This document shows positions 12,692-19,472 of a stretch of 33,649 bases of DNA, piece by piece. Position 1 is the stretch's first letter; every line of letters starts with the position of its first letter. The position numbers were made by a program, and so were the translations under genes. Origin of the DNA: an uncultured Campylobacterota bacterium (GTDB lineage: Bacteria > Campylobacterota > Campylobacteria > Campylobacterales > Arcobacteraceae); contig CAIJNA010000180.1 in the NCBI GenBank assembly GCA_903821805.1, forward strand, positions 1-33,649, written 5' to 3'. Under the pieces are notes generated by a model that was given only the letters and a program-made list of their open reading frames with translations, did not search any database and was not told the origin of the DNA.

Positions 12692-13246
12692 TTATGAACA
12701 GTGTCCTCCTCCACAACAAGCTGATTTTGCAGGAGCTACAGATTTAGCAGCTGCTAAAGCTTCAGCATAATCAGGCTCAGAAGTAATTTCTGGAACCACT
12801 TGTTTGTAACAAACTTTACCGTCAGCATCAATTACGAAGATTACTCTTGCAGTAATTCCAGCTAATGGACCATCAGCTAATAAAACACCATAAGCGTTTG
12901 CAAAATCTTTGTTTCTGAAATCTGAACAAACTTTTAAGTTTTCAATTCCAGCTGCACCACACCATCTAGCTGCTGCAAATGGTAAGTCCATTGATACAGT
13001 GATAACTTCAACACCTTCAAGGTTTGCAGCTTCTGTATTAAATCTTCTAGTTTCAGCATCACAAACACCTGTGTCAAGTGAAGGTACTGCGATTACAAGT
13101 TGAACTTTACCAGCTCCACCGATAGTTTCGTTTTGAAGCATTGGGTTACAGTTTACTACTGTTACGATTGGAGCTAAATCTCCAACTTTTACTTCGTTTC
13201 CTGCTAAGTTGCATACTATGTTTTCTTTAAATGTTACTGTTGCCAT
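12692..13246 (-). CDS. tpx: Thiol peroxidase (Tpx, atypical 2-Cys peroxiredoxin) with Cys-rich C-terminal tail
   Basis: VIAVPSLDTGVCDAETRRFN (peroxidatic Cys), DLPFAAARWCGAAGIENLKVCSDFRNKDFANAYGVLLADGPLAGITARVIFVID, EITSEPDYAEAL; ends ...KSACCGGGHCS. Confidence 0.93.
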   Translation of the reverse strand: MATVTFKENIVCNLAGNEVKVGDLAPIVTVVNCNPMLQNETIGGAGKVQLVIAVPSLDTGVCDAETRRFNTEAANLEGVEVITVSMDLPFAAARWCGAAGIENLKVCSDFRNKDFANAYGVLLADGPLAGITARVIFVIDADGKVCYKQVVPEITSEPDYAEALAAAKSVAPAKSACCGGGHCS

Positions 13247-13374: not shown

Positions 13375-14538
13375 TTATTTGATTGAAAATGCTTGCTGAA
13401 TATTTGCGAGTGCTTTTTTTAGTTCACTTTTTGGTAGAGCAATATTTAACCTAAAAAAATATTTTCCATTTGAACCAAAGGTAATACCATCATTGAGTGC
13501 TAATTTTGCTTCATTTAAAAGTTTATCTTTTATCTCTTTATGTTTTAGTCCGGTATCTTGAAAATCAAGCCATAAAAGATATGTTGCATTTGTTTCGATG
13601 ATTTTGATTTTTGGTAAATATTTTGTAAAAAATGCATTTGTATAGTTAATATTTTCTTCCAAATATGTCAATAATTGGTTTAGCCAAATTTCACTCTCGT
13701 TGTTATAACAACTTTGAATCAATACATTTGATAGTGAATTTAGGGATACAATATGATCTCTTTTTGCATAAATTTTAAACTTCGTAAGAATTTCATTGTT
13801 TTTTGAAAAAGCATATGAAGTATTAAGACCCGCAACATTAAATGTTTTACTTGGTGCGTTCAGAATTAAACAATTTTCATTTATTGAAGCAAAAGATACA
13901 AAGTTTTTAAACGCTAGATCACTGTGAATTTCATCACTAATAACTAAAATATTATGCTTTACACATAAATCATTTAAGGTTTCAAGCTCATCTTTGCTCC
14001 AAATTCTTCCGATCGGATTATGGGGTGAGCACAATAGTAGTAGCTTTGTTTTTAATGATATTTTTGATTCCAAATCACTCAAGTTCATTACATATTTATC
14101 ATTTTGTAATTCTAATTGACTTTCAATGACGGTTCTTCCATTATCTTTTATTACACTAAAAAATGGAAAATAAACAGGTGGAAAAATTATCACTTCATCA
14201 CCATGTTCAGTAAAAGCTTCTATTGCAACTTTTAAAGATGGGACAACACCAGAGCAAAATAAAATATTTTCTTTTTGAAGTTCAAGATCATGTCTTTTTT
14301 GCCAGCTAATAACAGCATTAAAAGATTCGGACGAAGGAATTTCATATCCAAAAATTTGTTGTTTTAATTTATTTCTCATGCCTGAGCATACATGCTTTGG
14401 AGTCGCAAAATCCATGTCAGCAACCCACAATGGCTTAGCCTCATTGGTCCCAAAATATTCCACAAGACCATCATATTTGACGCAATCAGTCGAGTGTCTG
14501 TTAATTTTTTTGTCAAAATTAACAAACTTATTCTTCAT
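13375..14538 (-). CDS. PLP-dependent C-S beta-lyase, PatB/MalY family; candidate OvoB
   Basis: VADMDFATPKHV, FCSGVVPSLKVAIEAFTEHGDEVI, LCSPHNPIGRIWSKDELE, ISDEIHSDLAF, SKTFNVAGLNTSYAF. Track start is 14550; ATG at 14536-14538 forms TAATG with the upstream ORF stop and is preferred. Confidence 0.88.
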   Translation of the reverse strand: MKNKFVNFDKKINRHSTDCVKYDGLVEYFGTNEAKPLWVADMDFATPKHVCSGMRNKLKQQIFGYEIPSSESFNAVISWQKRHDLELQKENILFCSGVVPSLKVAIEAFTEHGDEVIIFPPVYFPFFSVIKDNGRTVIESQLELQNDKYVMNLSDLESKISLKTKLLLLCSPHNPIGRIWSKDELETLNDLCVKHNILVISDEIHSDLAFKNFVSFASINENCLILNAPSKTFNVAGLNTSYAFSKNNEILTKFKIYAKRDHIVSLNSLSNVLIQSCYNNESEIWLNQLLTYLEENINYTNAFFTKYLPKIKIIETNATYLLWLDFQDTGLKHKEIKDKLLNEAKLALNDGITFGSNGKYFFRLNIALPKSELKKALANIQQAFSIK

Positions 14539-16415
14539 TATTTTTCCCATATTGTAATATTGTCAATTTCTTCAACAAATTTTAAACTTTTTCCAAATAT
14601 TTCTTTTACTTTATCTTGCTTTGTAAAGTTTTTAAACGCTACAACAACTCTTCCAGAATTATTTAATCGCAGAGGAAGTTCTTCGAGTAAGTGGTCTAGA
14701 TTATAAAGTTCTTCATGATTATTTGAAAGTATAATAAAGTCAAAATTTCTAAAATTAGGTTTTAAATTGCAGCTATCACCTTGCCAAAAGTCTATATTTT
14801 TGATATTTTGTAACTCTAAATTTTTTTGTGCTGTTAAAATATTTCTCGCAGTAAAATCAATTCCAACCAAATGTTGAAATTTATTAGACATATTAAATAC
14901 AGCTTTTCCATAGTCGCATCCTAAATTTAAAGCCGTTTTATAATCCGGCTTGATATATTTGCTAGAAATGCTGGTAACGATATCAAAGAATTTTTCTTCC
15001 CTGAAAACAATGTGATTTTTTACTGTTTCAATATCTTCTTTGTGATCATTGGAAACAGATACATATCTAAAGCCTGCATGTTGAAAGAAATGTCTTCTGA
15101 AAGCATACCTAGAGCTTTTTAATGTCTCATTTCCTGTGCTTATAAAAGAACCACCTTTAATGATATTGTGTCTTTTATCAAAAGTTGGCACTGAAAAGTC
15201 ATCATAAAGAGGATGAATTTCAAATCCTTGGAAACCGTCAATTGTTGTTGTTGTCCACTGCCATACATTCCCGATAACATCAAAAAAATCACCATGAGCA
15301 AAGATATTGACTGGCGATGGTGATGTAAAATGTTCAAGATTAATATTGGCTGGAGCAATTTCACCCCATAATGGCTCATCTTTAACATTTGAAACATGAT
15401 AAATTTTGTACCACATTGCTTCACTTGGTAATGTAATATTTGTAGATGTTTTGTGCGATTTCCATTTACAAAATGCTAAAGCCTCTAAGTAATTAACTTC
15501 AACAGGCCAATTCATAGGGAGCTTAATAAGATTTTGTATAGTTCTTAAATGATACGTATTGTTTTCAAGCAACCAAAAAGTTGGATGGCTGGCTTTAGTA
15601 TAGTTTCTCCATCTAAGACCTTCGTCATCCCAAAAACTATCATTTTTGTAGCCACCATCTTTTACAAATTCTAAAAATTCACCATTGCTTGTTAGATATT
15701 TTGCTGCCTTGAAGTCATCAATTTCAAATGATGCCTCACCATATTCATTGTCCCAGCCATAAAAATCATCATCTCGCTTTTTGCCTAAATGGATAGTTCC
15801 ACCAGCAACATTAATTAGTTCATTTGCAGGAGCTTCGCCATATTCTTGACATTCTTTAAAAAGTTCTGTTGGCTCTATAACTTTATGATTTAATTGTCTA
15901 TGAAGAACCGATGATGTTTCAAGATGAATTCTTTCGTGTTCAATTCCCATCATAACTATCCACATGGGACTATCCCAAGTGATAGGAAGTTTGAATTCAA
16001 CAGTATCAATAAATTCTAGTACAACTTTTTGTACTTTAGCTCTATATTCTCTTGCATCTTCAACTTTTGGCCATGCATAATTTGATTGATTTAGATCATC
16101 CCAGCTCATCTCATCAACACCAACCGCAAAAATAGATTCAAAATTTGGGTTGATTCTATTTTTTAAAAATCCACCCAAAATAAGTTTATTAATATAAAAC
16201 GTTGCGGTGTGACCAAAATAAAATATAAGTGGGTGTCTTAATTTTTCTGGCTGTTCATAAAAGATATTATCATGTGCAAACATATTAAAAAGCTCTTCGA
16301 ATAGTTTGTAAGTTTTTACAAAATATTCTCGAATCTCAGATCTTTTTTTCTCGATATTGTCACCCCTTAAAGAGATATTGCGTGTGATGAAACTTTTATA
16401 ATCTTGTGCTTCCAT
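14538..16415 (-). CDS. ovoA: OvoA-like 5-histidylcysteine sulfoxide synthase with C-terminal SAM-methyltransferase domain
   Basis: HERIHLETSSVLHRQL (iron-binding HX3HXE), GNVWQWTTTTIDGFQGFEIHPLYDDFSVPTFDKRHNIIKGGSFISTGNETLKSSRYAFRRHFFQHAGFRYV (FGE/EgtB-OvoA type), then ALNLGCDYGKAVFNMSNKFQHLVGIDFTARNI (SAM-binding motif I). Confidence 0.9.
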   Translation of the reverse strand: MEAQDYKSFITRNISLRGDNIEKKRSEIREYFVKTYKLFEELFNMFAHDNIFYEQPEKLRHPLIFYFGHTATFYINKLILGGFLKNRINPNFESIFAVGVDEMSWDDLNQSNYAWPKVEDAREYRAKVQKVVLEFIDTVEFKLPITWDSPMWIVMMGIEHERIHLETSSVLHRQLNHKVIEPTELFKECQEYGEAPANELINVAGGTIHLGKKRDDDFYGWDNEYGEASFEIDDFKAAKYLTSNGEFLEFVKDGGYKNDSFWDDEGLRWRNYTKASHPTFWLLENNTYHLRTIQNLIKLPMNWPVEVNYLEALAFCKWKSHKTSTNITLPSEAMWYKIYHVSNVKDEPLWGEIAPANINLEHFTSPSPVNIFAHGDFFDVIGNVWQWTTTTIDGFQGFEIHPLYDDFSVPTFDKRHNIIKGGSFISTGNETLKSSRYAFRRHFFQHAGFRYVSVSNDHKEDIETVKNHIVFREEKFFDIVTSISSKYIKPDYKTALNLGCDYGKAVFNMSNKFQHLVGIDFTARNILTAQKNLELQNIKNIDFWQGDSCNLKPNFRNFDFIILSNNHEELYNLDHLLEELPLRLNNSGRVVVAFKNFTKQDKVKEIFGKSLKFVEEIDNITIWEK

Positions 16416-16437: not shown

Positions 16438-18138
16438 TTATTTATTTTTTAAAATTTCAACAATTTTAGATAAGGCAATATCTTCTTTCTCGCCAGTTTT
16501 TCTGTTTACAAGTTCAACAAAACCCTCGCTTAATTTTTTACCTATTACAACAGCATAAGGTAGACCAATTAATTCAAAATCACTCATTTTAAATCCAAAT
16601 CTTTCTTTGGTTCTGTCATCAAGTATAGCTTCAATTCCTGCTGTTTTTAGGTCTTCATAAATTTTTGTTCCAGTAGATAACTCATCTTCGTTTTTACCAT
16701 TTGAAATAATAATATCAACAAAAAATGGTGCAGTTTCTTTTGTCCATACGCAACCTTTTTCATCATGACTCTGCTCAATAACGGCTGCAATTAATCTGCT
16801 TACTCCTATTCCGTAAGTTCCCATTTCAAACGGTTTGCTTTTACCATTACTATCTAAAAAGTTTGCTCCAAGTGCTTTAGAATATCTATCTCCAAGTTGG
16901 AAAATATGTCCAACTTCTATCCCTTTTGTATAGCTTAGTTTTCCACCACAACATTCACAAATATCACCTTCACAAACAGCTACTAAATCAAAATAAACAT
17001 TATCTTCCATGCAACAAACATCAACGCCAGCTAGGTGATAGTTTTCTTCATTTGCACCACAAACCATATCGTTCTCATCTTTTAGCTCACTGTCTATTTT
17101 AAATATAACGCTTGATGGAAGATCCTTTATCCCTACATATCCAGCTACTAGACCAGCATTAATTATTTCGTCCTCACTAGCATCTTCAAGCTCAAGTGCA
17201 TTTACACTATTACATGCTTTAGTTTCTTCAAGTTCATCATCACCTCTAACAAAAAATACCGCTATTTTTGTAGTATCCTCATATACCGCTTTTTTTATAA
17301 CAGCCTTGATAGTTTGTGACGGTAAAATATTTAGAAATGAACTTAATTCATCAATTGTTGTTGTGCTTGGAGTGCTAATTTTGCCACTTGCTAAATTGTT
17401 TTTAGTTTCAATTTTCTTATCTTTTCGTTTTGCAGCTTCTATATTTGCACCATAATTACAACTATCACAAACAACAATTGTATCCTCACCACTATTTGCT
17501 AGTACGTGGAATTCTTTACTTCCAGTTCCGCCAATTGCACCACTATCTGCATCAACTATTCTAAAATCAAGTCCAAGTCGTGTGAATATTTTTTTATAAG
17601 TTTCTTCCATAAGATGAAATTCACGTTTCATATCATCAGTATTTTCATGAAATGAGTAACCGTCTTTCATTAAAAATTCTCTTCCTCTCATAAGTCCAAA
17701 TCTTGGTCTAGCTTCATCTCTAAATTTCGTATTTATTTGATAAAGATTTATCGGTAAGTCTTTGTAGCTAGTAACTCTATTCTTAACAAGCTCAACCATA
17801 GCCTCTTCATTTGTAGGGCTTAGAACAAAACCATTATTTTTTCTATCTTTGATTCGCAACATTTCAAGACCCATTTTTGTAGCTCGTCCGCTATTTTCCC
17901 AAAATTCTATTGGAGTTACAAAAGAAAGTTGAACTTCTTGGGCACCACTATTATCAAGCTCTTCTTTAACAACATTTCTAATTTTATCAAGAACCATTTT
18001 CCCGAGTGGAAGATAATTATAAAGACCACTTCCGCTTGTATTTATGAAACCAGCTCTTAGTAAGAATTGGTGTGATGGCAATGTTGCATCATTTGGAGTT
18101 TCTTTTGTTGTTGGTATAAAAAGTTTTGAGAATTTCAT
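16438..18138 (-). CDS. proS: Prolyl-tRNA synthetase
   Basis: 566 aa; [82 protein letters not shown], editing-domain insertion, [26 protein letters not shown]. Confidence 0.98.
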
Positions 18139-19472
18139 TAATCTATTTCCTTATAATTGTTGATTTTATATGCATTGTCTATTGTGTTTTCATCTTGAAT
18201 ACCAAATAGATTTTGCGCAGTATTTAGTATTTCATCGCCTTTTAAAGATACTGAAACTTCTTTCAATTTGATTGTTGGAGTGTGTAAAAATTCCGCCATA
18301 ATTGATTGGCAGAGTTTTTCAATATTGGCAACATCATCATGTTTTATAAATTTCTTTTTGATGGCGATTTGTATCTTTTTATCTATTATTTCATCGCTTT
18401 TTGTTCTTATGTTTTTTATTATAGGCTCAACGGCCAGAGATTTTAGCCAAATAAAAAATTCTTCGCTCATTTGACGAACTATCCCGAATGCTTCTTTTGC
18501 CTGATTAGCTCTAAGCTCAAGAGTTTCATCAACAATACATTGCAAATCATCTACGCTATAAATATGTAAATTCGAAATATTCATCTCTTCAATATCTCTT
18601 GGTAGCGCAATATCAAACCAATTACGAGCAATTGAATTTTCTTTGACCATCTCTTTCGTTATGATCGGGTATGGAGCTGATGTTGCAGTTACAAGCAATT
18701 CCATCGAATCAAGTAGATATTCAAGTTCTTCGTAAGGTTTCACTTCAATCTGATTTGCGGCATAAGAATTTCCATTTCCATCTGTTATTATTGAATGAGC
18801 TAATATTCTTGCTTTTTTTATATTTCTGCTGCAAATAACAACATCAAAACCACTTTTAAGAAGATGTCTGCATGCGAGCTCACTCATTTCACCAGCACCA
18901 ATTACAAGAGCTTTGACTGACTTTGTGTCTTTGTAAAGTTGTCTAGCTTTTGCTACTGCTGTTGATGCTACAGAAACAGAACCAGTTCCAAGTTGCGTGA
19001 TATTTCGAACTTTTGCTGCACACTTAAAGGCAAAATTCATAACACGAGAAAGTTTTTGGTTTGAGAATTTTTTTTCTATTGCAAATCTGAAAGCGTCTTT
19101 TAGTTGACCAGCTATTTGTGTTTCACCAATAACAAGGCTATCCAAAGATGAAGCAACGGTAAAAAGATGGTAAATGGCAGCCATATTTTCATATACATCA
19201 GCTCTTTCATGCAGAGAATGAAAGTCTATTCCAGAACGATTTGAGAATAATTGCAGTATTTCTTTTGATGAATCGTTACAGCATTGAACACTTGCAATAA
19301 GCTCAACACGGTTGCATGTTGAAATCAACATCGCCTCATTTATTTGCTTGTTATCTAAGACAGTTTTTAAAAATGTTTCTTTTTCTAGTTCGTTTCCGAA
19401 TGCCAGTTTTTCTCTAGTTTTTATATCCGTATTTTTATGAGTAAAACTAACTATTAAATATTCCATAAGCAT
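18138..19472 (-). CDS. hemA: Glutamyl-tRNA reductase
   Basis: [79 protein letters not shown]. Confidence 0.97.

Follow-up and report, generated by a model that had tools for sequence, protein, structure and literature searches.

Results

The window, the whole 33,649-nucleotide stretch of DNA that was analysed, carries an OvoA-OvoB pair that probably produces 5-thiohistidine, with methylation presumably lost from this locus or moved to another one, and with the SAM-binding core of the methyltransferase domain retained. The genome that contains the window (G000) is a MAG of 1.2 Mb in 243 contigs, 92% complete, and is Arcobacteraceae-like, as its best relatives bear that name.

Organization of the ovoA-lyase locus

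The genes of the locus were as follows.

13375..14538, minus strand: ovoB candidate, PatB-type PLP C-S lyase, 387 aa
14538..16415, minus strand: ovoA, sulfoxide synthase with a fused compact C-terminal methyltransferase-like domain, 625 aa
14536..14540, minus strand: TAATG, in which the ovoA stop TAA (14540-14538) and the lyase ATG (14538-14536) overlap by 1 nt
16438..19472, minus strand: proS and hemA, upstream of ovoA on the same strand

Both ORFs of the pair lay on the minus strand at the coordinates given in an earlier note on this DNA, and the one-base TAATG overlap that it described was confirmed. The matches of the two products to TIGR04344 (E=3.4e-201) and TIGR04350 (E=3.1e-131) indicated that these identities were not due to chance. 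The gap between proS and ovoA was 22 nt in the window, and the same order of proS and hemA upstream of ovoA was found in G044, G045, and G046. The overlap of ovoA and the lyase was a conserved feature, mostly of 4-29 nt in directly adjacent relatives when the first start codon was taken; in the window, the lyase could start at 14538 or at a second in-frame ATG at 14550, which gives 391 aa and a 13-nt overlap with ovoA. The TAATG junction suggests translational coupling of the two genes.

A gene for a thiol peroxidase with the cysteine-rich tail CCGGGHCS and a TAA stop adjoined the pair (window 12692-13246, minus strand). Its product scored 245 bits with the NCBIfam Prx-SUH model, below the cut-off of 298, and is possibly a Cys form of that family. 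A thiol peroxidase gene was also located 3' of the lyase in G044. In three genomes belonging to genus g54, a conserved gene of about 136 aa was found directly 3' of the lyase (L089:3694-4101, L090:6660-7070, and L087:6924-7343). The L089 copy had no Pfam match, two of these three genomes had an OvoA lacking the methyltransferase domain, and the gene is a candidate helper gene.

The C-terminal domain is reduced to a SAM-binding core

The OvoA of the window has 625 residues, and the OvoA of most Arcobacteraceae has about 700. The compact form was present in ten Arcobacteraceae genomes from four genera, with 168-173 residues past the synthase part versus about 254. The features of the domain in the window were as follows.

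14541..15056, minus strand: compact C-terminal domain, residues 454-625, 172 aa versus about 254
14907..14930, minus strand: SAM motif I, LNLGCDYG; G, C, and G invariant in all 23 aligned C-terminal domains
14841..14864, minus strand: SAM motif II, GIDFTARN; DFTARN invariant in the ten compact domains
14760..14789, minus strand: SAM motif III region, FWQGDSCNLK, a hallmark of OvoC
14700..14714, minus strand: EELYN at the place of DRLY in intact OvoC; each of the ten compact domains has E instead of the R

The C-terminal SAM methyltransferase motif claimed in the earlier note is present, but it sits in a strongly reduced domain, a fact that had gone unnoticed. GC..G, D520, and FWQGD were present, whereas the N-terminal YExD...QYCEF..G cap, the EGEL hairpin insert, the SPYTW...TPK..WLGG stretch, and the FVIxETxRKxQH stretch were missing from the alignment, and DRLY was changed to EE[IL]Y in most of the compact domains. 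With TIGR04345, the domain in the window reached 79 bits, below the cut-off of 170. Judged by these alignments, it is not a normal OvoC domain.

Conserved columns were those conserved in at least 85% of 47 full-length OvoAs, and their segments (N-cap, SAM core, insert, and C-terminal) were defined by the motifs of the fold, not by what is lost. The domain in the window retained 17 of the 25 SAM-core columns, 0/9 in the N-cap, 1/3 in the insert, and 1/23 in the C-terminal segment; across the compact set, 16-20 of the 25 SAM-core columns were kept. Full-length OvoAs averaged 23.5 SAM-core, 8.4 N-cap, and 21.4 C-terminal columns, and stand-alone OvoM proteins had 16-20 in the SAM core, 8-9 of 9 in the N-cap, and 20-22 of 23 in the C-terminal segment. 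From its position in the fold and its conservation, the lost part is probably the acceptor side.

The FWQGDSCNLK motif, together with a fold match described below, points to descent of the compact domain from OvoC, and replacement by an unrelated methyltransferase was rejected on these grounds. Nine other genomes have a domain of the same compact length in an open frame, and an annotation or frameshift artefact was also rejected for this reason.

Stand-alone OvoM in a minority of the genomes

The Arcobacteraceae genomes were searched for OvoC/OvoM, with matches at E 1e-30 or better. Each positive genome had exactly one match, which was part of OvoA in 68 genomes and a separate gene of 241-247 aa in G043, G084, and G076. 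These three stand-alone OvoM relatives scored 292-297 bits with TIGR04345. The OvoA of G043, a congener of the window genome, has no C-terminal domain, and those of G084 and G076 are compact; the intact OvoM of each is encoded elsewhere. A stand-alone OvoM was thus found in 3/11 genomes with a compact or absent domain versus 0/68 of the others (one-sided p about 0.002, hand calculation). The same search at E 1e-30 found no intact OvoM in G000, G044-G046, G048, G049, G085, or G102; the five compact congeners of the window genome are 96-100% complete. In another genome, G272, whose OvoA has no methyltransferase domain, an intact OvoM carried an ADP-ribosylglycohydrolase domain (PF03747) fused to its N terminus (L098:4377-6218).

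The earlier proposal that ovothiol A is the product was not supported: TIGR04345 gave 79 of the 170 bits needed, the conserved columns outside the SAM core were nearly all lost, and this search found no separate OvoM in the genome or in its compact congeners. 5-Thiohistidine is the safer predicted end product. An unrelated methyltransferase could perform the last step.

Recurrence of the reduction

Reduced C-terminal domains with the SAM core kept were also found in four other Campylobacterota lineages (G003/G013, G273, G310, and G160). A further case, from outside the class, is the Prolixibacteraceae record L013. The domains of the sister genomes G003/G013 (L215 and L216) passed the TIGR04345 cut-off with 188-192 bits, yet kept only 6/23 C-terminal columns. 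Their SPYTW and ETxRK stretches are eroded, as would be expected of the same reduction at an earlier stage. OvoAs with no such domain were found in G043, G230, and G272, that is, in the genus of the window genome and in another family. In the tree of the C-terminal domain, all ten compact Arcobacteraceae domains formed one clade (100/100). The synthase tree, with its long branches, contained no clade of the compact genomes, but such a clade was not rejected (AU p 0.098). A single origin of the compact state is therefore uncertain, with the C-domain tree for it and the synthase tree neither for nor against it.

A tentative extension of these observations is that, in several Campylobacterota lineages, the OvoA methyltransferase evolved independently into a SAM-binding domain that has ceased to accept 5-thiohistidine, serving either as a built-in SAM sensor of the synthase or as a methyltransferase for a new acceptor, and that unmethylated 5-thiohistidine is their thiol; we regard this as possible.

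Beside the reduced OvoA of the Prolixibacteraceae record L013, no linked acetyltransferase (5THNAT) was found, and none was recognised in the inspected Arcobacteraceae neighbourhoods, where systematic naming covered only homologues of the window genes. A split OvoA in G096 was rejected as a candidate, as the pieces sit at contig ends. G158, a genome with no full OvoA match, has an OvoC-type domain remnant that contains an in-frame TAG (L218, G158:C1:1074543-1074917).

The compact domain is relaxed but maintained

The compact domain was relaxed yet maintained at the SAM site under purifying selection, as seen from dN/dS, the dN ratio, the invariance of the SAM core, and a confident predicted fold. 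Its dN/dS was about 0.2 in the least diverged, unsaturated pairs, and its dN was about 1.9x that of the synthase part, versus about 1.05 in full-length OvoA. Among the ten compact domains, 23/42 columns were invariant in the SAM core versus 8/130 elsewhere. The AlphaFold2 model of the domain had a pLDDT of 90 and seven strands, and the structures nearest to it were OvoA 8khq, OvoM 9bxl, and OvsM. In the AlphaFold2 model of the whole OvoA, the arrangement of the domains was unlike that in 8khq (rmsd about 15 A).

Given how well the SAM pocket is preserved, the main rival to the loss of methylation is a minimal working OvoC, whose acceptor site is perhaps completed by the synthase domain or by a dimer partner, so that ovothiol A would still be made. 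The preferential invariance of the SAM-site columns, the purifying selection, the confident seven-strand fold, and the best structural matches to OvoA and OvoM are all consistent with such an enzyme, as are the eight compact genomes that have no other OvoM. However, outside the SAM core nearly every conserved column has been lost and most of the domains have EE[IL]Y in place of DRLY, the domain has diverged faster relative to the synthase part than in full-length OvoA, and the congener G043 has dispensed with the C-terminal domain while having OvoM. The intact OvoM of G084 and G076 would also be superfluous if the compact domain methylated. Taken together, these points make a working minimal OvoC rather unlikely.

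It is unlikely as well that the compact domain is a functionless, decaying relic on its way to the domain-less state of G043, G230, and G272. The faster evolution of the domain, its GC content, which in each of the ten compact genes was lower than in the synthase part, and the occurrence of domain-less OvoAs in the same genus and another family would fit decay, whereas the low dN/dS, the SAM-core columns kept invariant across four genera, the absence of any frameshift or stop in the domain of the ten genomes, and the residues shared specifically among the compact domains argue against it.

The PLP lyase is very probably OvoB

The lyase scored 438 bits with TIGR04350 (PatB C-S lyase; cut-off 340), and its nearest solved relatives were PatB 6qp3 and 4dgt.

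13846..13848, minus strand: predicted PLP-binding lysine K231 in APSKTFN, which aligns with APSKTFN of PatB 6qp3

The adjacency of ovoA and the lyase, which the earlier note had suggested checking in related genomes, proved to be widespread: it was found in 17/79 OvoA-positive Arcobacteraceae genomes, among them all ten compact-domain genomes, and in 31/54 sampled OvoA-positive genomes of the class outside the family, with three more within 4 kb. Adjacency and gene overlap were kept in several families. One clade of the lyase tree (SH-aLRT 99) contained most of the OvoA-less Arcobacteraceae together with the Campylobacter-type genomes; OvoA-positive Arcobacteraceae mostly had lyases outside this clade. 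The window-type lyase was present in 75/79 OvoA-positive versus 3/25 OvoA-negative Arcobacteraceae genomes (Fisher p 1.5e-15, which is overstated because the genomes are related and not independent), and the four OvoA-positive genomes that lacked it are assemblies 54-88% complete.

A general cystathionine or cysteine-conjugate beta-lyase that merely adjoins ovoA is quite unlikely. The PatB/MalY type is a family of broad specificity, and in many Arcobacteraceae the same lyase type lies far from ovoA; against this, the lyase type tracks OvoA, with a different clade, shared with Campylobacter-type genomes, in most OvoA-less genomes, the adjacency and overlap are conserved across families, and the window genome carries another Cys/Met-family PLP enzyme. 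The proposal of a dedicated OvoB thus gained support from adjacency, overlap, clade, and co-occurrence with OvoA; on this basis, the lyase in the window is very probably OvoB, and there is good evidence that this lyase type is OvoB also in genomes that do not have it linked to ovoA.

The synthase part belongs to OvoA

15057..16415, minus strand: sulfoxide synthase part, residues 1-453, DinB-like N-terminal domain and FGE-sulfatase fold
15924..15938, minus strand: predicted iron ligands H160 and H164 of HERIHLE; the third ligand, H69, at 16209-16211

TIGR04344 matched residues 13-452 of OvoA over profile positions 2-444 of 444 with 669 bits (cut-off 400), the Pfam matches in this part were DinB_2 and FGE-sulfatase, and the nearest solved structure was the bifunctional OvoA 8khq. 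Both of the motifs previously pointed out, HERIHLE (residues 160-166) and FFQHAGFRYV, were found. H69, H160, and H164, which we take by homology with OvoA and EgtB to be the iron ligands, were invariant in 20 aligned OvoA sequences, and Y437, the conserved Tyr of SRYAFRRHF, was present in at least 90% of them. The SenA model gave 156 bits, below its cut-off of 420. Although EgtB and EgtB-IV are homologous to the enzyme, an EgtB-type ergothioneine synthase is highly improbable, since the EgtB model TIGR03440 gave 167 bits where 360 are needed, against 669 for the OvoA model, and no egtD was found over the cut-off in the window genome or its ten relatives (11 genomes), so that hercynine for the EgtB reaction is not expected. 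The view of the gene product as an OvoA-like sulfoxide synthase was therefore borne out, and residues 1-453 are well supported as an authentic 5-histidylcysteine sulfoxide synthase.

Discussion

The reading preferred here is that methylation has been lost or moved while the SAM-binding core was retained. OvoA would use Fe and O2 to join cysteine to C5 of histidine as a sulfoxide, and the coupled PLP lyase OvoB would cleave the sulfoxide into 5-thiohistidine, pyruvate, and ammonia. The C-terminal domain of OvoA, descended from the OvoC N-methyltransferase and stripped to a minimal SAM-binding Rossmann core, would probably no longer methylate 5-thiohistidine, and most likely the organism accumulates 5-thiohistidine, or a derivative made by another enzyme, rather than ovothiol A. 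The retained core may be a structural or regulatory domain that binds SAM, or may act on another acceptor. We infer the enzyme activities, the loss of methylation, and the end product from the observed homology, domain state, conservation, and distribution. Against this reading, the SAM pocket is clearly preserved, so the domain could still be catalytic; a replacement OvoM occurs in only three of the 11 compact or domain-less genomes; and G000 is an incomplete assembly in many contigs.

The route to ovothiol through OvoA, OvoB, and methylation is established (PMC9103826, PMC12631010). OvoA proteins without the methyltransferase have already been described (PMC9103826), as have truncated OvoAs encoded together with a 5-thiohistidine N-acetyltransferase (PMC12631010), and structures of the stand-alone OvoM of Sulfuricurvum have been solved (9bxl-9bxn). 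In the openly accessible literature, we found no account of the SAM-core-only form or of ovothiol genes in Campylobacterota, and no paper on the active site of OvoM; subscription papers were mostly outside this scope, and priority cannot be claimed. An annotated ovoA is always taken to imply ovothiol, and for this genome, too, annotation would predict ovothiol synthesis; because the methylating domain is gutted, the presence of ovoA may not mean ovothiol. 5-Thiohistidine is an antioxidant building block, and the pathway may end with it, a single step before ovothiol. The repeated reduction with the SAM site kept, and with OvoM relocated in some genomes, provides a natural set of enzymes on the purpose of the methyl group, with which one can ask whether 5-thiohistidine alone suffices. 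The assignment of the lyase clade as OvoB, linked or unlinked to ovoA, is strong and testable.

The synthase part matches the bifunctional OvoAs (Erwinia tasmaniensis; OvoA_Th2, 8khq) over its full length and shares their predicted iron-ligand and FFQHAGFRYV motifs; unlike them, the window protein has a methyltransferase of 172 aa versus about 254, without the N-cap, the hairpin insert, SPYTW...WLGG, and FVIxETxRKxQH. The lyase resembles OvoB (Naowarojna et al. 2018, as described in PMC9103826) as a predicted C-S lyase on the OvoA sulfoxide and a PLP enzyme next to ovoA, but its nearest solved relatives are PatB 6qp3 and 4dgt, and it is likened to OvoB by role and context. The stand-alone OvoM of Sulfuricurvum sp., also from Campylobacterota, belongs to the same methyltransferase family, and the AlphaFold2 model of the compact domain matched it with a TMq of 0.71-0.75; that OvoM is intact, whereas the domain in the window keeps the core only, and true OvoM relatives are encoded elsewhere in the genomes G043, G084, and G076. 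In the truncated OvoA of Bacteroidota with its 5-thiohistidine N-acetyltransferase (PMC12631010), OvoA lacks a working OvoC module, as the window protein probably does, and 5-thiohistidine is the branch point. There, the module is missing and the acetyltransferase is co-encoded; here, no acetyltransferase was recognised beside the gene at the inspected loci, and the SAM-binding core is kept.
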